DNA of 64,000 bases from a virus, in the IMG/VR virus record IMGVR_UViG_3300025000_000083, positions 1 through 64,000 of that record; one strand, 5' to 3'. This document shows, piece after piece, positions 3,141-51,845 of this stretch. Within the stretch, counting starts at the first letter, position 1, and each line of letters begins with the position of its first letter. The position numbers were made by a program, and so were the translations under genes. The notes under the pieces were generated by a model, which was not told the origin of the DNA, ran no database searches, and saw only the letters and a program-made list of their open reading frames with translations.

Positions 3141-3641
3141 TTATTTGAAATTTAAGTTTGCAAATTCACCTTTAAGTTCTTTTGCTTTAGCATCGTATCT
3201 TTTTGCCGCAATTACAGGATCCCGGCTACAGCCAAGATCGTAAATTATCCCATTATGGGTTATTGTTGCAGAATAAGAAATTTCAAAAGTATTAGTCTTT
3301 TTTTTAAACCACCTATGTTCACTGACTCCGAGATAAGGGATTTTACCTCGGGGTTTAATCCAGCTCCTATTTTGATTTACAGTGCAATTTCTTAAATTAT
3401 ATTTCTGATTATTTAATCCATTCCAGTCCTTGTGGTCTGTCTGCATATTGTCGGGGGTTTTCATTATTTCCCTGTGCATTAATAGCATAATCCGCTTACC
3501 TTTTTTATTCGTTGTGTTTCTTTGCGCATAATAAGTATCTCTGCTTTTACGAGCAAACCATTTCCATTGGTTTAACCATTCGTAATCCGAATCATCGACC
3601 ATTGTAACTAATCCTCTTGTAAGTGGTATTGTTTTCATCAT
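3141..3641 (-). CDS. HNH homing endonuclease with AP2-like DNA-binding domain
   Basis: The 166-residue protein begins MMKTIPLTRGLVTMVDD, a typical start for phage HNH-AP2 endonucleases. The HNH core is seen as LMHREIM (residues about 54-60), then TDHKDWNGLNN and NLRNCT. An AP2/ERF-like domain follows (about 103-160): YLGVSEH, a central beta sheet, RDPVIAAKRYDAKA and GEFANLNF. It would nick or cut a specific DNA site and spread its own gene; it is free-standing, not in an intron that I can define. Two adjacent ATG codons (3641 and 3638) could be used. The leader contains a copy (E3) of the recurrent folded element. Confidence 0.85.
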   Translation of the reverse strand: MMKTIPLTRGLVTMVDDSDYEWLNQWKWFARKSRDTYYAQRNTTNKKGKRIMLLMHREIMKTPDNMQTDHKDWNGLNNQKYNLRNCTVNQNRSWIKPRGKIPYLGVSEHRWFKKKTNTFEISYSATITHNGIIYDLGCSRDPVIAAKRYDAKAKELKGEFANLNFK

Positions 3642-3741
3642 TCCCAGTTTTAATAAATCCAGAACATAAAAGGAATTGGAAAGGAGTTCTGGTTTCCCTT
3701 ATCAGTCGGACATGACCCCGACCTATCCAACTCCAAAGATA
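3642..3741 (-). ncRNA. Recurrent HEG-leader RNA element, copy E3
   Basis: On the minus strand a TATCTTTG box (3734-3741) is followed by a 9-bp closing stem (3726-3734 with 3672-3680) with one G-U. Inside are GATAG, a 5-bp hairpin (3705-3709 with 3718-3722), TGATAAGG, and a loop carrying CCAGAAC (3686-3692). This 7-mer is exactly complementary to GTTCTGG at 3659-3665, immediately after a short T-run. A degenerate copy sharing CTGG lies one base before the start codon. The same plan recurs at 18820-18921 and 28100-28200 with different stems and 7-mers. No -33 TTG is visible here. The fold is my inference. Confidence 0.55.
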
Positions 3742-17496: not shown

Positions 17497-18056
17497 AACG
17501 AATAATTGTACTCTGCTTTACTACTTACCCATGACCTCTTTTGTGGCTCAATCCATTCAATGCCAATGAAGGCAAAGAAGTCCTCTTCCGTAATAAATGG
17601 AGGTGGCAATGTCGGGCAATTCTTATACTCAGGCTTGATGCGCCACGTGCTCCCCTTATGATCACACTCTCTTTTATACCTTAATCCGTCCATTGTGCCA
17701 CATAGACCCCTGCGATTCCATTGTACTGCCAACCCATGAGAAAAAACTGAGGATCCTGTCGAAATTGCAAGTATTCGTCCATAATCAGCAAGTGTAGTGA
17801 CGTGCAACTCTATCTGAATGCCCGATTCGGGGTATTTGAAGCGTTTTAAGCGAGTGCCGTTCGTCACAAGTCCTTTGAATCCTTCCGGGAACGCAATTCC
17901 CATGGAGAACTCGTCCTTGGGTACAATGACAAATTCTAAATCACCGACCATCTCACATTCCCGCCTAACTGAGCCAGCAATTGATATTTTTACACAAAAG
18001 GGAGAAATATATTTCTCAAACCTTTCTGCTATTTTTCTTGCTCGATCAAGAGACAT
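17493..18056 (-). CDS. DNA polymerase beta/PolX-type nucleotidyltransferase
   Basis: 187 residues from the ATG at 18056 (MSLDRARKIAERF). IAGSVRRECEMVGDLEFVIV (about 26-45) is the GS-x9-D-x-E motif of Pol-beta-type nucleotidyltransferases, with the two metal-binding carboxylates. A third acidic strand, IQIELHVT, follows. Unlike full PolX it has no thumb or helix-hairpin-helix domain, so it probably transfers nucleotides to a small or protein substrate, or fills short gaps. The HNH gene 18046-18819 ends 11 bases inside it. An in-frame ATG at 18074 is an alternative start. Confidence 0.75.
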   Translation of the reverse strand: MSLDRARKIAERFEKYISPFCVKISIAGSVRRECEMVGDLEFVIVPKDEFSMGIAFPEGFKGLVTNGTRLKRFKYPESGIQIELHVTTLADYGRILAISTGSSVFSHGLAVQWNRRGLCGTMDGLRYKRECDHKGSTWRIKPEYKNCPTLPPPFITEEDFFAFIGIEWIEPQKRSWVSSKAEYNYSL

Positions 18057-18819
18057 TTTTAAATTTTTGCTCATATATTTTAATTGCCTCAATTTCAGTT
18101 TTAAAATATCCGAAAAAATATCGTTTCCCATTAATTCGTTTAGCCGCAGCCCATCTTCCATTAGAACAATATACCCCATTGTATTGAGAACTTTTTTTCT
18201 TTCTAAATTGAGTAAAGTCGATACTAGTGTGCTTCCATGATTTATTATAAATAATTCGAGATAATTGTTCTGTTTTAATTTTAAAAGCAGAAGCAATTTT
18301 GGATCGTGGGGTTTTTTCTAATAGCATATCATGTATTCTTTTTAAATCGGATTCTTTAATTTTAGAAAAAAAATTTTGTTCTCCTAACATTCCTGTTTTT
18401 AAACCTATAGTATAAGCATGTTTATTATTTTCACTTGTTGTACACCATTTAAGGTTACTCACATGATTACAGCTTTGTATTCCATTGATGTGATTTACTA
18501 TTTTTTTGTCACTTTTTTCTAAAAAAGTTATTGCAACTAATCTATGTACGTAGAATACCTTTTCTTTATTCTCTTTCCATAAAATAACATGAAAGTAATT
18601 TAACTGCTTATTCCTTTTCCAATGGGATATAACTCTTGTTTTTGTATCAATATGCCCACATACGACACATTTTTTTTGAGACAAAGAAATTACCCTTCCA
18701 TAATTACTTATATAATATAGATTTTCATATTCAGGAATAGGCTTAAATATTTCATTAGGATACCTATATCTAAAATCTTTAAAATTAGAATCTTCGTAAA
18801 TGTTTAAATAATCTTTCAT
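18046..18819 (-). CDS. HNH homing endonuclease with NUMOD4, HTH and AP2-like modules
   Basis: 257 residues from the ATG at 18819 (MKDYLNIYEDSNF). In order: a NUMOD4 module (IFKPIPEYENLYYISNYGRV, about 22-41), the HNH core (VHRLVAITFLEKS ... VNHINGIQSCNHVSNLKWCT, about 85-125), a helix-turn-helix (TPRSKIASAFKIKTEQLSRII), and an AP2-like end (YNGVYCSNGRWAAAKRINGK ... FGYFKTEIEAIKIYEQ). It cuts a specific DNA site and drives its own spread. Its 3' end overlaps the start of the PolX-like gene by 11 bases, and its leader contains copy E2 of the folded element and a clear promoter. Confidence 0.85.
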   Translation of the reverse strand: MKDYLNIYEDSNFKDFRYRYPNEIFKPIPEYENLYYISNYGRVISLSQKKCVVCGHIDTKTRVISHWKRNKQLNYFHVILWKENKEKVFYVHRLVAITFLEKSDKKIVNHINGIQSCNHVSNLKWCTTSENNKHAYTIGLKTGMLGEQNFFSKIKESDLKRIHDMLLEKTPRSKIASAFKIKTEQLSRIIYNKSWKHTSIDFTQFRKKKSSQYNGVYCSNGRWAAAKRINGKRYFFGYFKTEIEAIKIYEQKFKNVS

Positions 18820-18921
18820 TGTCAAGCTATTTAAGATTGTCAAGCAAAAAAGCAGAGAGAAGGAGGCTTGACTTCTCCGTATCACAGGGGGATCAATCCC
18901 TGCTATCTCTCCACAAATATA
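18820..18921 (-). ncRNA. Recurrent HEG-leader RNA element, copy E2
   Basis: Minus strand: TATATTTG (18914-18921), then a closing stem (GAGAGA 18906-18911 with TCTCTC 18855-18860), GATAG, and a 5-bp hairpin (CAGGG/CCCTG, 18898-18902 with 18885-18889). Then TGATA and a stem GGAG/CTCC whose loop holds GTCAAGC (18866-18872), and a six-T run. GTCAAGC is exactly complementary to GCTTGAC, present twice: directly after the T-run (18839-18845) and one base before the start codon (18821-18827). The hairpin loop ATTGATCC is identical to that in copy E1 while the stem differs by compensatory changes. Function inferred. Confidence 0.6.
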
Positions 18922-18944
18922 TGAACTGTTGTTCATCTGTGCAA
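18914..18944 (-). promoter_or_regulatory. Bacteroidetes-type promoter before E2
   Basis: Minus strand TTG (18942-18944), 20 bases, TATATTTG (18914-18921), exact consensus; it would start transcription just at or before the closing stem of the folded leader. Confidence 0.65.
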
Positions 18945-19808: not shown

Positions 19809-20225
19809 TTATAAAGTTTGAATTAAAATATACGTTCTTGGTGACTCTGAATATAGCTTCTCTGAGAATAACCTGCATATCTGTGAGTCGTCTTTGTAAA
19901 ATATGTGATTCATAGAATCGGTTGCGAATTTTACACAGTTATCCAAATCTTTCTTGCAGGTGTGAAACTCCGGTGCGTTATCTCTGAGCATGGAACTCTT
20001 TGCGCCACTACCATAATGACTCTTTGGTCTGCCGAAATAGAATATTATGGTTATGCCTATGGGTCCTTCTAACGGCTCCTTTGGTGCTTTCTGCTGTATC
20101 ACCGATAAAAAGTCATTTTTCTTATCACTTGATGGGTCATAGGTGCCTGAGAACTTACCTCTCTTGAAACTCCTGTGCCGCATCTGAGCATTGGGCTCAC
20201 CAAGCATCATTAATTCTATTGTCAT
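19809..20225 (-). CDS. rusA: RusA-like Holliday junction resolvase
   Basis: 138 residues, MTIELMMLGEPNAQMRHRSF start. The RusA pattern is visible: GPIGITIIFYFGRPKSHYG, a central KKDLDNCVKFATDSMNHIFY with the acidic catalytic-type Asp residues, then DDSQICRLFSEKLYSE. RusA is a dimeric endonuclease that resolves four-way DNA junctions made during replication and recombination. Its ATG overlaps the stop of the preceding GIY-YIG endonuclease gene by 4 bases, so they are coupled. Confidence 0.8.
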   Translation of the reverse strand: MTIELMMLGEPNAQMRHRSFKRGKFSGTYDPSSDKKNDFLSVIQQKAPKEPLEGPIGITIIFYFGRPKSHYGSGAKSSMLRDNAPEFHTCKKDLDNCVKFATDSMNHIFYKDDSQICRLFSEKLYSESPRTYILIQTL

Positions 20226-21031
20226 TCTTTTATCTGTTTACCTATTATCCTCAACTTTTTTTCTGCATGACGTTTTATTTGAGACAAATGCATTTTTAAT
20301 TTTGTCTCGGATGTATGCAATTTCCCTAACCTATCCTTATTCCCTGTTTTGCATAGGCGCATTGCTTCTCTTTTTTCTTCTGACCACTTCCTCCCTACTG
20401 AATTTTTATTTCCTATCTTAGCCAAAGACATCTTTTTCCTTACTTCAAGAGACATGACTTTTCCTTTTTTAGCAAGACTCATTTTTAACTTTGCTTCATT
20501 TGAATGTGTCTTCCCTAAAAAGCTTTGCTGTCCCATTTTTGCCTTGCTGATATTCTCACATCTTTGTTTTTTATTATTATTCCAAGATTCACTAATTTTC
20601 TTTTTAAATTCTGGGGTTAATGGCTTCCCTTTTCCCCAAGGTATATGCCCCTTTTTAAATTCGGTATGCGGAGATATATGCAAGCCCTTATTTCGTAAAC
20701 TCTGCTTTCTACGTGATTCTACTGAATGCTTACAGCCAAGAGGGCTTCCCGCAATCTTAGAGATATTAAAATAAGGATTATATAAATCTATAAAAAATTG
20801 TTCGTTCCTAAGTAAATCAATCCTATCACAACCAATTAGCGTAGAAAAACACAAGTCATCTTCTCCATATTTATTGTAATGATCTTGCAATAAAAAAGAA
20901 TGATGTTTTTGTAATCTAAGGTCTTTGATATGTATGTTTTTTCTTTGCTCTATATGGACTGAACTTCCAATATAGCATCTTTGAAGATTACTTATAGATT
21001 GAATCATGTAAATGCCAGTGGTTGCTTTCAT
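20222..21031 (-). CDS. GIY-YIG homing endonuclease with NUMOD3 repeats
   Basis: 269 residues from the ATG at 21031 (MKATTGIYMIQSISN). The GIY-YIG domain covers about residues 1-95 (TGIYMIQS ... RCYIGSSVHIEQRKNIH, then a Glu in RNEQFFIDLYNPYFN). Three or more NUMOD3-like DNA-binding repeats follow (for example HSNEAKLKMSLAKKGKVMS and SEEKREAMRLCKTGNKDR). It cuts DNA at a target site to spread its gene. It is coupled to rusA downstream and preceded by the pseudoknot-capable leader N2, whose pairing strands include the start codon. Confidence 0.85.
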   Translation of the reverse strand: MKATTGIYMIQSISNLQRCYIGSSVHIEQRKNIHIKDLRLQKHHSFLLQDHYNKYGEDDLCFSTLIGCDRIDLLRNEQFFIDLYNPYFNISKIAGSPLGCKHSVESRRKQSLRNKGLHISPHTEFKKGHIPWGKGKPLTPEFKKKISESWNNNKKQRCENISKAKMGQQSFLGKTHSNEAKLKMSLAKKGKVMSLEVRKKMSLAKIGNKNSVGRKWSEEKREAMRLCKTGNKDRLGKLHTSETKLKMHLSQIKRHAEKKLRIIGKQIKE

Positions 21032-21164
21032 GTTAAGTATAAAAACCCCGATTGAAAGCGGCTTACTACTCGATCCATGTGATTGGAGGGAATACACTTT
21101 CGCACGGGGTGTTAATATTTCAGTTTCTTTTAACATGAATGAGTAGTAAAGCACTACAAATATA
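21032..21164 (-). ncRNA. Candidate pseudoknotted HEG-leader RNA (N2)
   Basis: Minus strand order: TATATTTG box (21157-21164); TTACTACTC (21141-21149); CATGTTAA (21130-21137); ACCCCG (21105-21110); GAAAG (21097-21101); GAGTAGTAA (21063-21071); CTTTC (21054-21058); CGGGGT (21045-21050) and a T-run; TTAACATG (21029-21036). The first pairs with the sixth over 9 bp, across the two nested stems, giving the same strand order as N1. CATGTTAA can pair over 8 bp with TTAACATG, which contains the start codon of the GIY-YIG gene. No sequence is shared with N1 beyond the box and TRGTG. Fold is inferred. Confidence 0.5.
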
Positions 21165-27352: not shown

Positions 27353-28099
27353 TTAATTTTTATCTTTCTGACGCACTCGTCTTATTTTCCATGCTAATAC
27401 TAATTTTGTTTTTTGTTCTTGGGACATAGGGATTCCTTTATTATGAGCAGGGGTACCCTTACGTGCTTCACTTATCTTCTTTTTTATTTCATCTAACATA
27501 GGTCCTCGCTTTGGCATCTTATGAGATTTTCCTATTCTACAAAGACTTCTATTTATTAATGCCTGCCCAACTATTTTTCTTCCTTTATTTGCCTTAATTA
27601 TTGCTTGCCTGGTTTTTTCTGGCATTTTCCTTCCAAAATTAGGATGCTTATCTCCCTTAATAGATAATCCTCTTCTCTTTTTCCATTCCTCAGACTGTAT
27701 GCGTCCTTTGTTAGCTATACTCATTTTCCTTCTAACTTCTTCTGGTATTATCTTACCTCTATTAGCCTTTATTATTTTTTGCTTAGTTTCTTCAGTCATT
27801 TTGCGACCCAATGTACTTCCTGCTATTTTACATACATTAAAGTATGGCTGCAGAGTGTTAATATAGTATTGTTCTCTCTCAATAAGAAATTGAGGCAAAC
27901 AGGGTTCTATGATTGAAAAAATCAAATCATCAATCCCATATTTATCTGCATGATGTTGAAGTTTGGGATTATGATGAGTTTTTAGCCTAAGTTGTCTTTT
28001 GTGATCCGCCCATCTATTTTTATAATAAATAGCACTCCCAATGTAAATCCTTTCGGGCTTAACCTTGGATTGAATCTTATATATGACAGGAACGATCAT
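27353..28099 (-). CDS. GIY-YIG homing endonuclease with NUMOD3 repeats
   Basis: 248 residues from the ATG at 28099 (MIVPVIYKIQSKVKPERIY). The GIY-YIG domain (about 1-90) shows IYKIQSKVKPERIYIGSAIY and the Glu in REQYYINTLQPYFN. Several NUMOD3-like repeats follow (MTEETKQKIIKANRGKI, EEVRRKMSIANKGRI, SEEWKKRRGLSIKGD). It is the last gene of the late operon and is preceded by folded element E1, with a copy of the paired 7-mer one base before the ATG. The paralogues at 45472 and 51141 share the N-terminal sequence closely. Confidence 0.85.
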   Translation of the reverse strand: MIVPVIYKIQSKVKPERIYIGSAIYYKNRWADHKRQLRLKTHHNPKLQHHADKYGIDDLIFSIIEPCLPQFLIEREQYYINTLQPYFNVCKIAGSTLGRKMTEETKQKIIKANRGKIIPEEVRRKMSIANKGRIQSEEWKKRRGLSIKGDKHPNFGRKMPEKTRQAIIKANKGRKIVGQALINRSLCRIGKSHKMPKRGPMLDEIKKKISEARKGTPAHNKGIPMSQEQKTKLVLAWKIRRVRQKDKN

Positions 28100-28200
28100 A
28101 ACTGAACTTATTAATGACACTGAACTTAAAAAAGATGGAAGAGCGTTCAGTAAACCCTTGTCATCGGGGGATCAATCCCGACTATCCATCTTCAAAGATA
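28100..28200 (-). ncRNA. Recurrent HEG-leader RNA element, copy E1
   Basis: Minus strand: TATCTTTG (28193-28200), an 8-bp closing stem AAGATGGA (28185-28192) with TCCATCTT (28132-28139), GATAG, a hairpin TCGGG (28177-28181)/CCCGA (28164-28168) with loop ATTGATCC, and TGACAAGG. A loop carrying ACTGAAC (28145-28151) follows, then a six-T run. ACTGAAC is complementary to GTTCAGT, present in AAGTTCAGT directly after the T-run (28119-28127) and again one base before the ATG (28101-28109). Same plan as E2 and E3, with compensatory changes in both the hairpin and the 7-mer. No -33 TTG at normal spacing. Confidence 0.6.
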
Positions 28201-32200: not shown

Positions 32201-35200
32201 TGGAGCAGCTAATTTCTGATCCATGTGTTGCAGATGATTCACCCATGAATAAAGAATCTCATCCTTATCAAGTTTTATTATGCCATCAAGAAATGAAGGT
32301 TTCTCCTCTTTCTCTGCAAACAATGATAAAACTTTTGTTCTTGGATCCTGTGCATCATACCTATTCCAATCCGTTCTTGCCTGAGTAAGTGCATTTTTAA
32401 TCTCCGGTGCGTTCTCAATTAATTTTTCAAACCAAGCATAGAACTTTGGAGTAACCTGCTTAACCTGATCAGGATTGATCACATAGTCCTTCACAAACTC
32501 AGCGATAGCCTCAGTCCTTTTCTCTGATGGATAACCTACATATTTAAGGTAGTCTGTTAATTCTTTCTTAAACTCAGCCCTCTGCATCACTCCATCAACT
32601 ATCTCGTCTCCATGTTTCTCCCTGAGTGTAACGAGTCTTGAATCTCTTGCTTTTAATTGGATGGTGAGTTTTCCAATAAGATCATTTGCCTTTGGTGATT
32701 TTATCCTCCCTTTCGTCACGTCTGCATTTATAGCATCCTCGGTCTTGTATGTCCTTCCTTTATACTTAACTCCGGGGATTTTTACTGCGGCAGTAACATC
32801 AGCAAATCTATCTCCCTCAACCTTTGATCTATGGCCAATAACTCCACGAATGTCAAAAGCAAACTGATCTATGTAGTGACCTATCTCATGGGCTAATACC
32901 CTGACATCACTGATATTCTTAACCCTGATGACTCCACTCTGAGAATTGAATATCCCTGCTGCCTTCCGCATAAACCTCTTGATCATTCCGGTTCTGACCT
33001 GTTCTCCCTCAGTCTTGCCTATGTTCTTTACAAGTCCTCTGCCCATATTACGAAGTGACATGGCATTATTCAAATCACTTGACTTATAATTCGGGTCTTC
33101 TGTTGTCGATACGGGCAATGGCTGATCCCATGCAAGTTCTTCTGGATTGTCTGTTTTGGGTTCTGTCTTTAGTTTCTTCTGTCCTTTTGCCCTTGGTGCT
33201 GATGGGAATCCTTCTACCTTCCCCCCTTTGCCTCCCTTTTTAGGTGGTGGAGGATTAAGATTATTCACATCCTCCCTGATCTGCTTTGACTCATCAAAGG
33301 TTATCTCTCCCCTGTCAATAGCCTCCAATACTTCATCTACGGATTGGTAGGTTTTGTCTTTAAAGGTGACTCCGTTCTTTTCTACTTTTGCGGCAATAGG
33401 TTTTGCCTCACCTTCTGTTTCAACTGGTTTAACATCTGTCTCTGTGCCTCCTGAAACGATATTCCCTTCTTCTTTGCCAGTAGTAATGTCTCCTTGGTTT
33501 GGTTTTTCATTGGTGTCTGATTTTATTCCTTCGGTTCCTTTTTCTTTGCCGCCTTCAACATCGCCAGTAGCGTTAGCAAGGTAGTCTTCTTCGGCTGTTC
33601 TGGACTCTTGTTCTGCTTTTCTGATGTACTCTGTGATTTCATCATATTCGATTTTAGTTATTAATCCTTTTTCAAGTGCCTTATCTGCATCGGTGTATGA
33701 GTAATTATCAAGTTCTGCACGGTTTCTCTTTATCAAATCCTCCCTCTCTGCACGTATATCATCACGGGATATTGATACCTTGGACTTTCCTTCTGCATTC
33801 CAGATGTCAATACCTCCATGCTCTTTATACATGCGTTCAAGTTCATTCAATGCCTGTGCTGATGCGGTGGATTTCTTTCCTTCTTTGATGTCACGGAATG
33901 CCTGAGCCCTCTGTTCATTACTCAGACCGCCTATCATCACACCATAGAGATCGGGGTTCGTATCGAATACATCCGCAACATACTTCTGAAACTCAGCATC
34001 TCTCTCTGAGAGTGGCTTCTGTGATTCAATCTTAACCTTATCAACCTTTGTCGGGTCTTTTCTGAGAGCAAGAAATTTGCCATCTTTGATAACACCTACC
34101 TTCCACTCATCGCCCTCTTTTACTTCATATCCAAGTCTCTTTGCATTTACCCTTATGGTGTTTGCCTGTAAAGCATTTTTCTTCTTCTGTGATGCGGATA
34201 AGATGCTATAACTACGTGCTGCGTCAATAAGTTCATTCTTTTCAAGTTCTTTCTGGGGTGTCTTAACAAGTCCTGTCTCAACGGGTTCCTCTTTGCCTTT
34301 CTGCTTAGACTTTATCTCGGCTTTTTTGTTCTCCGTCCATTCATTGATTGCCTTAACAGTCTCGGGTGACGGCCATGAATTGACCTCTCTGTCAAACCAC
34401 CTCTCATCAACTTCACCGCTCTTTTTATCAATGGCAACATCTTCCAGATAGGTAGCAAGTTCCTTCTTGTCAGCAAATGACTTGTCACCTAATGCCAATT
34501 TCTCATCAGTTACTTCTTCCGGTGCTTTCTCTGACTTCTTCTCCTTCTTGGGTGCATAATCCTCCAATGGCTTGCTTAAAGTAGTTTCAAGTGCCTTATT
34601 CTGTTCCTCGATCTGAGTTGTGATAGACTGTACCTTTGCATCTTTTATCTTCTGATCGGTGCTGGTATCTTCCTGCCAATACTGCAACTCGGATTCCTTT
34701 TTCCTGATGTCATCCACAATCGGCTCTGCTTCTGTAATACGTGGGTCGGCTTCCTTTACTGTGGTGTTGATCTTGTCAGTCCATATCTTTTTTTCCTTTG
34801 CAGATAGCTTCGGGTCATTCTGTATGTTATCAATGAATGCCTTGGGATTCTTTACTATTTCCTGAGTCATGGCATTTACGCTGATGATGTTGTCAATGGA
34901 TGTCTTTTCATCAAGTAACTTCTTTTTCAGTTCTGGATCAGTTTCCTTTTCATACTCATTCCACAACTCATCAGACTGCTTCCGTAACTTCATCGGGTCA
35001 ACCTGCATCTTGGATATTGTCTTGATGGCATTATCCGTGGTGGTCAGGTATGAAATGTACGACCTGTGAGCAATAGACCTGTTCATAGCCTCCATGCCAA
35101 TATCATATCCTGAGAATAAGCCTCCCATTATAGCTCCTTCCATGAATGTACCTCCCTTTAACTTTGAATCGGCACCGAACATTATGCTATTTGCAAGTCC

Positions 35201-43963: not shown

Positions 43964-45481
43964 TTAAGGCGTATCCCGCATGCAACGAACCGAACATCCA
44001 GCTGACTTATTAATATCGCTTCTAAATGCTTGAATATTATTCCATAAAATATAGCGAGACCATGCATTCGCTCCCCCTGCCACAGTAGAACTCCATTTAT
44101 TACCATAGTTAGTTTTTTGATAAAACACACCATCATTGCCACGATAACCACCAGGCATATATTTGAGTCCATATTCATCTGTAGCCCCTGTATTTGGTGT
44201 TGTCCAATGATCTAATCCCATTTCTTTTAGTTTCCCCCCAGCAACAAAATCGCCCCCTGCGAATGCCATTAAAGCAGACCAATCTGCATCACTTGGGACT
44301 CTCCATCCCGTAGGTGCAAGATAGGCTCCTGCAACAACATTGTGATGATCTACTGCGTACCAATTATAAAGTAATCCATAATCAGGTATATTTAAAGGAT
44401 CATTATTGTAAGCACAATATCCTTCTGTTATCAATGCTGCCCATGCGGCATTACCAACTACTTCTGTTATTGGAGACCCATCTCGGAATTTAGTTGTCTT
44501 TAGATTCTCTACCATCCACTGCTGAGCACCAATAGTAACATAAGTATAAACATTACCATCTGCATCAATAATTCCATCTTGGGTTGTTATAGTCGAGGTA
44601 TTTGAATTTGGACTTGTACCAACATCATTATATGCACGTACACGGTAATAATATGGTGTCAGAGGTGATAATCCACTGACTGTATCAAATAATACATTGC
44701 CTACATCCTTATTGTTAAACCCTGCCACAAATGCAGTAAAATTCACATCCGTTGCTACATCGAGATAATATCCCGTCACCCCTTCTACTGCCAACCAGTT
44801 TGCTATAAAGGTCGTAGGTGTCTTCACACTCCCATTTATCGCTACCGGAGCCACGGGTTCACCCTCATCAGCAAGCCACAAAAGACAATTATCTCCAAGT
44901 AGGTCAAACAATAAATCAAACTTACCTCCGGGCACTGCACGGAATCCTGAAAGATCACTTGCCCCTGTATTCGGGTCTGTCCAATGCTGTTCCCCTGTCT
45001 CCTTTAATTTTCCGCCTGCTATCGCTGCACCACCAAGATATGTTAATAACGTGTCAATATCTGCCTCCGTAGGTACTCTCCACCCATCAGGGCAAAAGCC
45101 TGCTGTCATTACCTGACCATGCGTATAAAGCCTCCCATAGATGTCTGCATTATCCTCAGTGTCATCATATACCTTACTGCCCGGATACTCACCATCATAG
45201 TTCTTCTTCATCCACGTTTGAGTGCCTATAACTATCTCATTATAGCCACTATAAACAAATTGTCCACCAATACTCGATCCATAATATGTGATGAGATTAT
45301 TGGGATTGATTAAAATGCAAACTTCAGACTGCAATGATTCAGCATTTCCGCTTTCGTTCTGAGATGCAGAGGATAAAGCACGGATATTTAAAGCCTCGAT
45401 ATATTCTCCGGGCTGCAAATCGGCAGGCGCATCGTCTTTGTTCAAGCCAATCTTAAATGATTTCTTATCCTTCAATTGCAT
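43964..45481 (-). CDS. N-terminal part of stabilization-type protein with FISUMP and fn3 domains, 505 aa
   Basis: The first 55 residues (MQLKDKKSFKIGLNKDDAPA, LQPGEYIEALNIRALSS) are the normal N-terminus of the long stabilization protein. From about residue 80 there are two FISUMP domains (IGTQTWMKKNYDGEYPG ... CPDGWRVPTEADIDTLL; then IGAQQWMVENLKTTKFRDGS ... PTGWRVPSDADWSALM) with a fibronectin III domain between them (about 210-295). FISUMP domains are Bacteroidetes/Fibrobacter surface modules. It likely decorates the tail and contacts the host. A GIY-YIG gene overlaps its start. Confidence 0.65.
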   Translation of the reverse strand: MQLKDKKSFKIGLNKDDAPADLQPGEYIEALNIRALSSASQNESGNAESLQSEVCILINPNNLITYYGSSIGGQFVYSGYNEIVIGTQTWMKKNYDGEYPGSKVYDDTEDNADIYGRLYTHGQVMTAGFCPDGWRVPTEADIDTLLTYLGGAAIAGGKLKETGEQHWTDPNTGASDLSGFRAVPGGKFDLLFDLLGDNCLLWLADEGEPVAPVAINGSVKTPTTFIANWLAVEGVTGYYLDVATDVNFTAFVAGFNNKDVGNVLFDTVSGLSPLTPYYYRVRAYNDVGTSPNSNTSTITTQDGIIDADGNVYTYVTIGAQQWMVENLKTTKFRDGSPITEVVGNAAWAALITEGYCAYNNDPLNIPDYGLLYNWYAVDHHNVVAGAYLAPTGWRVPSDADWSALMAFAGGDFVAGGKLKEMGLDHWTTPNTGATDEYGLKYMPGGYRGNDGVFYQKTNYGNKWSSTVAGGANAWSRYILWNNIQAFRSDINKSAGCSVRCMRDTP

Positions 45482-46284
45482 AATGATGCTTCTTGTTGCT
45501 CTATTTTATTTTTTAATTTTCTTAATTCCCATGTTTTTAATGCAGATAAACGACATCTTTCCTTTACCTCGGAGGATCTCGGCTTCCGCATTTTCTGTTT
45601 ACTCTCCTCTGTATGTTTAAATCCTTTATGCGACTGACTCATCTTCTCTCGCAGTTCTTCCGGCATCTTTTTACCCTTCCATGGACCAGGTCTCCCTTTG
45701 CTTGCTATTGACATCTTCGCTAAAGTCTCTTTTGAAAAGCGTCCATGAGTCCCTTTATACTTATTTGGTCTGCCTGTACTTGCAATGCGAGTTCTCTCTC
45801 GATGCATATCAGACATTTTTCTCCCTAAGTTATTTTTATTCCCCTTATGAGCCCTCGACATCTTCTCTCTTGTTTCTTTTGAATATATCCTGTTTTTAGC
45901 AAATTCCCTCATCTTTTGTCTTGTTTTTTCCGATGGGTTACTATTTGCTTTTCCAATCTTCTTTCTTGTTTCTCCTGATAATTTACGTCCTAAAGAACTT
46001 CCTGCTATCTTACAGATATTAAAATATGGTTTCAATTTACTTATATAAAACTGTTCTCTGTTTATCATCCAATCAGAAAAACAAGGTTCAATAATTGAGA
46101 ATTGTAAATCGTCAATCCCGTATTTATTAACATGATATTGAAGTTTTTTAGAATGATGTTTATTGTCGATTAAATGTTTAAAGTGTTCTCTCCACCGATG
46201 AGTTATATCTAAAGAACTTCCAATATAAATCCTTTCGGGTTTAATCTTAGACTGAATCTTATATATGCCAGATTGGTTTTTCAT
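45472..46284 (-). CDS. GIY-YIG homing endonuclease with NUMOD3 repeats
   Basis: 270 residues, MKNQSGIYKIQSKIKPERIY start and Glu in NREQFYISKLKPYFN (GIY-YIG, about 1-90), then several NUMOD3-like repeats (SKETREKMSRAHKGNKNN, GRPGPWKGKKMP, HTEESKQKMRKP). It overlaps the stop of the upstream gene by 4 bases (ATGA) and the start of the FISUMP gene by 10, so it is tightly fitted into the late operon. There is no folded leader of the E or N type. Confidence 0.85.
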   Translation of the reverse strand: MKNQSGIYKIQSKIKPERIYIGSSLDITHRWREHFKHLIDNKHHSKKLQYHVNKYGIDDLQFSIIEPCFSDWMINREQFYISKLKPYFNICKIAGSSLGRKLSGETRKKIGKANSNPSEKTRQKMREFAKNRIYSKETREKMSRAHKGNKNNLGRKMSDMHRERTRIASTGRPNKYKGTHGRFSKETLAKMSIASKGRPGPWKGKKMPEELREKMSQSHKGFKHTEESKQKMRKPRSSEVKERCRLSALKTWELRKLKNKIEQQEASLCN

Positions 46285-51140: not shown

Positions 51141-51845
51141 TTATGGTTTTAAATTTATTAATTCCTTTTCTCTCATAGCTCTTATCTTTCGAGAATTGCT
51201 CATTTTTTGTTTGGTGATTTCTGATACTAGTTTATTTATATGAGCTATCTTATTTTTTAAATTAGATTCCGGCTTATGATGTTTCCCGAAGAAGGGATGA
51301 TTTGCATCTGCATATTTCCCTTTTCTTGCATCACTCATCCGCTTCCGAGTATCTTCTGATATTACGTTCTTCATCCCTTTATTCCATGAAGGTTTTCCTG
51401 TTTTTTTACCTTTGTTCCATGCGATCACAACACCTTTAGTACCTTTATTAGAAGGAGACTGTCCTTTATGCGAATTACTCATCTGCTGTATGGTTTCATC
51501 TGAAAAACAATCTTTCTTCCCCTTGTTCCATGGAATCTGCCCCTTAACACCAAACCTGCTCCCTGCAATTTTACATAAATTAAAATAGGGTTTTAATGTA
51601 TCGAGATAATATTGTTCTCTTGCAAGTAAAAACGCAGAAAAGCAGGGTTCTATAATCGTAAATATCAAATCGGATTCTCCGTACTTATTAAAATGGTTTT
51701 TAAACTTAACAGAATGATGTCCTCTCTGTTTAAAATCTCGCAAATGGACTTTCCATCTATCTTTTATATTCATTGCACTCCCGATATAAATCCTTTCGGG
51801 TTTAATCTTAGACTGAATTTGATATATTCCGCTAACCGGGGCCAT
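51141..51845 (-). CDS. GIY-YIG homing endonuclease with NUMOD3-like repeats
   Basis: 234 residues: MAPVSGIYQIQSKIKPERIY start and a Glu in LAREQYYLDTLKPYFN (about 1-90); then repeats such as SDETIQQMSNSHKGQSPSN and SEDTRKRMSDARKGKYAD with NKGKK links. It ends 4 bases before the BspA-like gene and starts 6 bases after the 94-residue gene. There is no folded leader; it is transcribed within the late operon. Same lineage as the copies at 27353 and 45472. Confidence 0.85.
   Translation of the reverse strand: MAPVSGIYQIQSKIKPERIYIGSAMNIKDRWKVHLRDFKQRGHHSVKFKNHFNKYGESDLIFTIIEPCFSAFLLAREQYYLDTLKPYFNLCKIAGSRFGVKGQIPWNKGKKDCFSDETIQQMSNSHKGQSPSNKGTKGVVIAWNKGKKTGKPSWNKGMKNVISEDTRKRMSDARKGKYADANHPFFGKHHKPESNLKNKIAHINKLVSEITKQKMSNSRKIRAMREKELINLKP

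Follow-up and report, generated by a model that had tools for sequence, protein, structure and literature searches.

Several described RNAs provide points of comparison for the element reported here. The class 1 xrRNA of flaviviruses is built of three helices (P1, P2 and P3), with a pseudoknot between the P3 loop and the strand after P1, while mutually exclusive pairings are typical of the expression platforms of riboswitches. For phage homing endonuclease genes (HEGs), T4 is the precedent for translational control by masking of the ribosome-binding site (RBS), which it achieves through simple hairpins and promoter choice (PMC2988022); such RBS-sequestering hairpins are known for I-TevI, I-TevII, I-TevIII, segB and Aeh1 mobE (PMC2988022). 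Lastly, in OLE RNA, the switching of a palindromic loop tetramer between GGCC, GAUC and AGCU backed homodimer contacts that were solved by cryo-EM (PMC12286853).

The window, i.e. the whole stretch of 64,000 nucleotides analysed from virus record IMGVR_UViG_3300025000_000083, harbors a leader, E2, that combines likenesses to all of these. From 5' to 3', it consists of the TATATTTG box, P1, GATAG, P2, UGAUA, P3, P1', a T-run, site 1, site 2 and AUG:

18817-18921, minus strand: E2, whole structured leader before the HNH_3-NUMOD4 gene
18914-18921, minus: promoter-like box TATATTTG, matching the Bacteroidetes -7 element TAnnTTTG
18854-18912, minus: structured core (covariance-model match, MFE fold, covariation among homologues)
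18907-18912/18854-18859, minus: closing stem P1, GGAGAG/CTCTCT
18903-18907, minus: junction GATAG
18898-18902/18885-18889, minus: stem P2, CAGGG/CCCTG
18890-18897, minus: apical loop of P2, ATTGATCC in DNA and AUUGAUCC in RNA, inferred self-kissing site
18891-18894, minus: palindromic tetramer GAUC inside the P2 loop
18880-18884, minus: junction TGATA
18875-18878/18862-18865, minus: stem P3, GGAG/CTCC, presenting the 7-mer
18866-18874, minus: loop L3, AAGUCAAGC, with the pairing 7-mer GUCAAGC at 18866-18872
18846-18851, minus: run of six T after P1, not conserved as a feature
18839-18845, minus: site 1, GCUUGAC, pseudoknot partner of L3
18821-18827, minus: site 2, GCUUGAC, 1 nt before AUG, inferred to serve in masking of the start region
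18046-18819, minus: homing endonuclease gene, 257 aa, ATG at 18817-18819, Pfam matches to HNH_3 (2.2e-8) and NUMOD4 (8.4e-8)

Sites 1 and 2 are 11 nt apart. The covariance model matches E2 with 60.0 bits (3.9e-15), with E2 itself among the training sequences, and the MFE fold of E2 contains the same three helices. An in-frame ATG at 18936 opens a 296-aa reading frame (18046-18936, minus) that swallows the leader, as similarly in a homologous leader (L001); automatic gene calling would thus conceal the RNA within coding sequence.

Across the whole window, the covariance model finds exactly three elements, namely E2 (18850-18916), E1 (28129-28195) and E3 (3670-3736), and the combined motif with at most three mismatches occurs twice, compared to zero occurrences in 100 shuffles. 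The two further elements comprise:

28132-28200, minus: E1 leader (69.3 bits, 7.4e-18); whole element with start codon 28097-28200
28193-28200, minus: E1 box
28186-28192/28132-28138, minus: E1 P1
28177-28181/28164-28168, minus: E1 P2, with loop ATTGATCC at 28169-28176 and GAUC at 28170-28173
28155-28159/28139-28143, minus: E1 P3, with L3 at 28144-28154
28101-28125, minus: E1 sites, site 1 GTTCAGT (28119-28125) and site 2 GTTCAGT (28101-28107); start codon 28097-28099
27353-28099, minus: E1 gene, GIY-YIG and NUMOD3 homing endonuclease (domain scan on 27353-28120)
3672-3741, minus: E3 leader (72.8 bits, 7.1e-19); whole element with start codon 3639-3741
3734-3741, minus: E3 box
3727-3734/3672-3679, minus: E3 P1
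3718-3722/3705-3709, minus: E3 P2, with CAUG in the loop at 3711-3714
3696-3700/3681-3685, minus: E3 P3, with L3 at 3686-3695
3644-3665, minus: E3 sites, site 1 GTTCTGG (3659-3665) and site 2 CTGG (3644-3647); start codon 3639-3641
3141-3641, minus: E3 gene, 166 aa, endonuclease-like

We moved the start of the E1 gene from 28120 to the ATG after site 2. The E3 product (166 aa) yielded no Pfam match, but by eye resembles the AP2-HNH endonucleases behind two homologous leaders (L003, L010). In each of the three elements, L3 is complementary to its own sites only, which makes the control private to each gene. Three DNA-level paralogues of 27353-28120, likewise coding for GIY-YIG/NUMOD3 proteins (20222-21154, 45472-46284 and 51141-51845, all minus), lack a leader, so it is not obligatory for that gene family. 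Elsewhere, at 46-149, the window carries an array of 10-nt, CTTTACTCTA-like repeats.

The initial annotation had placed a box, a closing stem, GATAG, a hairpin, TGATA, GTCAAGC and a T-run upstream of an HNH-NUMOD4 gene, and all of these could be located on the minus strand. The two copies of GCTTGAC it described, one after the T-run and one a single base before the ATG, are our sites 1 and 2, and the loop it considered common to E1 and E2 is indeed ATTGATCC in both, above stems that differ by an exchange of U-A for C-G and another of C-G for A-U (TCGGG/CCCGA in E1, CAGGG/CCCTG in E2). At the position of the E2 TGATA, E1 has TGACA. While the described features stand, the picture was incomplete: P3, the whole of E3, the GATC palindrome in P2 and the match of the box to the Bacteroidetes -7 promoter element had been missed.

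For a broader view, we scanned IMG/VR with patterns that fixed only the letters of the junction and of P3/P1 and left P2, L3 and the downstream part free; the promoter box was additionally fixed in the first of these scans. Together with two covariance models (R1 and R2), the patterns yielded 41 distinct leaders and later 36 more, of which the second set was scored against predictions on the L3 complements and the P2 palindrome that had been recorded in advance. Both sets include relatives, so the counts are not independent events; the E-values of the covariance models, which had only a short calibration, are rough, and some start codons, as well as the downstream window of one leader (L030), were picked by hand. 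Chance pattern matches were dropped (L031-L039, L051, L125, L126 and G019:C95, also L094). One retained sequence (L130) has neither the complements nor the palindrome; it may be a degenerate copy or a false match.

Homologous leaders occur in dozens of phage contigs, and in several phage records two or three different genes are each preceded by a copy. One record with two copies is that of Bacteroides phage C3_41T2LP (OR296439.1), a phage in culture; both were found by the covariance model in a scan of records reached via endonuclease genes:

35116-35183, minus: copy 1, before the HNH endonuclease gene C341T2LP_00037
51603-51675, plus: copy 2, before the helix-turn-helix gene C341T2LP_00071

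Sixteen further phage records, mostly with endonuclease genes, gave no covariance-model match and one more gave only a doubtful one (E 0.3), which speaks for the selectivity of the model. A blastn search with the leader against cultured phages returned only short chance matches, and the E2 endonuclease as a protein query only two near-identical loci. In one contig (L159), two copies (160-226 and 2403-2468, minus) lie apparently directly after tRNA-like 3' ends (...GGTTCGAATCC...); judged from these ends, the endonuclease genes appear to be inserted in a phage tRNA cluster.

No known Rfam family was found to match the leader: Rfam 15 gave no match in the window at the gathering cut-off, only two chance eukaryotic hits in the E2 region at E-values up to 10, and none at 11 homologous loci at E-values up to 3. 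As the literature, within the open PMC papers, yielded no description either, the RNA family is apparently undescribed so far.

The consensus of the family reads P1, GGATAG, P2 hairpin, UGAYAAG, P3 hairpin, P1', site 1, about 10 nt, site 2 and start codon, with a core of about 60 nt and two sites of 4-8 nt. Since the MFE z-scores of single leaders are just -1.5 to -1.75, single-sequence folding cannot prove this structure; covariation does. In an alignment of 44 distinct homologues, all three helices covary with two-sided pair changes in each; 91.1% of the cells are paired, compared to 69% in shuffles, two-sided changes number 158 versus 46, and the covariation score of 0.579 (0.168 +/- 0.014 in shuffles) was reached in none of 500 shuffles. 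When the partner is slid by one column, the signal is lost (0.05 to 0.15). The comparison of homologues thus predicts a fold that is a three-way junction of P1, P2 and P3 with a conserved core, whose letters GGAUAG and UGAUAAG are invariant or nearly so (variants UGACAAG, CGAUAAG and CGAAAAG). It also supports the earlier proposal, originally based on two stems, that selection acts on RNA structure. Compensatory changes that preserve pairs rather than sequence bear directly on the idea that the element acts as DNA, its palindromes and inverted repeats being bound by proteins or used in recombination and travelling with HEGs. The strong link to several families of mobile endonuclease genes would suit such an element, yet with these changes, with an L3 that tracks the Shine-Dalgarno sequence (SD) and with leaders that also precede terminase, helicase, replication and tail genes, we regard it as scarcely credible.

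The T-run allows another reading, in which P1 and the U-run form an intrinsic terminator and the pseudoknot chooses between termination and read-through. A U-run follows P1 in E1, E2 and E3, and runs of at least four T are found in 30 of the 41 leaders of the first set, runs of at least five in 21. An intrinsic terminator should, however, show a GC-rich stem directly followed by a U-run in all members, whereas four T are missing in 11 of 41 and five in 20. Moreover, P1 starts with an A-rich stretch, whose pairing partner has to be U-rich, and the reading does not say why site 2 lies at the start codon or the SD, so that we give an attenuator little credence.

Upstream of P1, the TAnnTTTG box, which corresponds to the -7 promoter consensus of Bacteroidetes as quoted in PMC7366714, ends a few bases before the helix in 27 of 41 leaders, where shuffles predict 1.05. 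Six more leaders have -10-like boxes; those without a box may lie inside operons. The homing endonucleases behind the leaders belong to HNH/NUMOD4, GIY-YIG with NUMOD3 or NUMOD1, AP2-HNH and treble-clef/DUF types. Other genes served code for a DnaB/primase-helicase (L042), a terminase large subunit (L088), a replication initiation protein (L087), a tail assembly chaperone (L021) and glycosyltransferase-like proteins (L044, L047). Both early and late gene types are thus represented, and no common signal is evident.

Nor do these genes share a metabolic theme or pathway, which weighs against a ligand-binding riboswitch, in which the invariant junction (GGAUAG, GAYAAG) would bind a small molecule, L3 and its sites would form the expression platform and the P2 palindrome would be merely structural. 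The strong conservation of unpaired junction bases and the presence of mutually exclusive pairings would fit this well. However, a merely structural loop leaves the changing palindromes unexplained, and the leader is almost confined to phages: it was found in 1 of 393 Bacteroidales genomes (a Prevotella MAG, the entry point of the search), in 3 of 391 genomes of a Clostridia class, with one match convincing by eye, and in none of 396 genomes from a sample of another phylum. The leader is a phage element, practically absent from host chromosomes, and a riboswitch appears improbable to us.

We compared L3 with the region between P1' and the start codon, scored the two longest Watson-Crick matches and used L3 loops swapped among leaders as a control. 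In the first set, these matches average 7.07 and 5.78 nt, compared to 3.80 +/- 0.18 and 2.97 +/- 0.20 after swapping, and in the new set 6.94 and 5.75 nt, compared to 3.84 and 2.95. Both complements occur in 40 of 41 leaders of the first set and in 34 of 36 of the new one; the condition that would have refuted the initial annotation, absence of the 7-mer pairing from most copies, is therefore not fulfilled. Site 1 lies a median of 4 nt past the modelled core and site 2 a median of 4 nt before the start codon, with a median gap of 10.5 nt, and L3 forms the stronger duplex with site 1 in 35 of 40 cases. In all 15 SD-bearing leaders, site 2 overlaps the SD-like motif, so L3 follows the RBS in phages that use SDs; in Bacteroidetes-type phages, whose hosts do without SD use (PMC7366714), it floats freely. 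That site 2 is the RBS, and that genes other than endonucleases are served, had escaped the earlier reading. A GC-rich (76%) relative (L139; 13896-13963, minus) has L3 complements of 10 and 8 nt, SD included, without a P2 palindrome, and the two loops are therefore separately losable.

The L3:site 1 pairing also raises the possibility of a nuclease-resistant, stabilizing leader, in which the junction and this knot near the 5' end would block decay from that end and site 2 would be incidental. While it shares the topology of class 1 xrRNA and is helped by the promoter box just before P1 in 27 of 41 leaders, this proposal does not explain the near-universal second complement, its overlap with the SD or the palindromes in P2, and we rate it as quite unlikely.

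These palindromes are tetramers in the P2 loop, present in 40 of 41 leaders of the first set in nine kinds (AAUU, CAUG, AGCU, CGCG, GAUC, GGCC, UGCA, GUAC and UUAA), often extended to U-NNNN-A, whereas shuffled loops give 23.7 +/- 3.0 when any central position is counted. In the second set, which has CUAG among its tetramers, for about ten types overall, the numbers are 31 of 36 versus 12.2 +/- 2.8 under stricter loop shuffles (maximum 23 in 2000 shuffles); the five leaders without a palindrome are mostly short-P2 or GC-rich relatives. The excess is clear, yet not all-or-none. Thus, what is expected of a self-kissing RNA, an apical loop that stays self-complementary while its sequence changes, holds in both sets. 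Neighbouring bases of one chain are unable to pair with each other, and a changing palindrome therefore points to pairing between two molecules, a line of argument also applied to OLE RNA (PMC12286853). From this pattern, and without physical data on dimers, we infer that two copies of the same mRNA may kiss through their P2 loops.

Taken together, comparative sequence evidence establishes the three helices, both complements of L3, the location of site 2 in the ribosome-binding region and the changing palindromes, while alternative ON and OFF states are inferred from the two L3 pairings. In the absence of expression data, we consider it probable, though far from certain, that the element is a cis-acting leader for translational control, in which L3 pairs with site 1 or site 2, with homodimerization of the RNA as a further layer that is only inferred. 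Starting near its own promoter in most copies, it would control translation of the following gene: the usually stronger pseudoknot of L3 with site 1, which follows P1 at a distance of a few nucleotides, would leave the start region open, while pairing with site 2 would mask the SD or the bases that immediately precede the start codon and block initiation. What selects the state can only be guessed; dimerization, and with it the concentration of the mRNA, might do so, as might an unidentified ligand or protein bound at the conserved junction. Since site 1 is nearly always both stronger and nearer, the OFF state would be rare on energy alone, and the element could be constitutively ON. In a more specific version, possible but doubtful at present, kissing makes L3 change partners between site 1, the decoy, and site 2, the RBS, and couples translation to the concentration of the leader's own transcript. 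The terminator, DNA-site and xrRNA readings rank below a translational switch, and none of the terminator, xrRNA and ligand-riboswitch explanations accounts for site 2 and the palindrome together.

If concentration is indeed sensed, each gene would have a private, sequence-coded dosage sensor, and if the P2 loop truly dimerizes, this would be an mRNA leader with an intermolecular RNA contact under strong selection, which is testable in the cultured phage C3_41T2LP. The family, apparently new and with a compact architecture not in Rfam, occurs widely in phages of Bacteroidetes, Firmicutes and probably further groups, where one shared RNA device would time or dose selfish endonuclease genes of very different kinds as well as some core genes of the phages. 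As L3 and its sites are freely recodable, it may also offer a scaffold for orthogonal translational switches.

With respect to known systems, the leader shares a palindromic apical loop with GOLLD, ROOL and OLE RNAs, which have symmetric kissing loops (PMC12286853), and with the DIS loop of retroviruses (PMC5874298), and resembles the latter also in its flanking purines (PMC5874298). It has no Rfam match to any of these, which are large noncoding RNAs or, in the case of DIS, retroviral genomes, whereas the phage element is an mRNA leader of about 60 nt. With class 1 flavivirus xrRNA it has in common the three-way junction and the L3 pseudoknot to the 3' strand, in our case a pairing deduced from covariation; no sequence similarity was noted, and xrRNA lacks the second site, the start-codon coupling and the palindromic P2 loop. 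As in translational riboswitches, a strand of the leader can pair with only one of two partners at a time, and one of the two pairings masks the SD, but the leader has no known ligand or metabolic theme and uses hairpin-loop pseudoknots instead of rearranged stems. Finally, it resembles T4-type HEG leaders in having an upstream RNA structure able to mask the RBS of phage homing endonuclease genes, and RNA complementary to that site is present, as L3 complements the SD in 15 of 15 SD-bearing leaders. T4-type hairpins, however, are simple and gene-specific, are relieved by promoter choice and do not form part of the RNA that starts at the gene's own late promoter, whereas the leader, with a transcription start inferred from the promoter-like box just before it, is one conserved three-way junction across gene families and, unlike them, features a decoy site and a palindromic loop.
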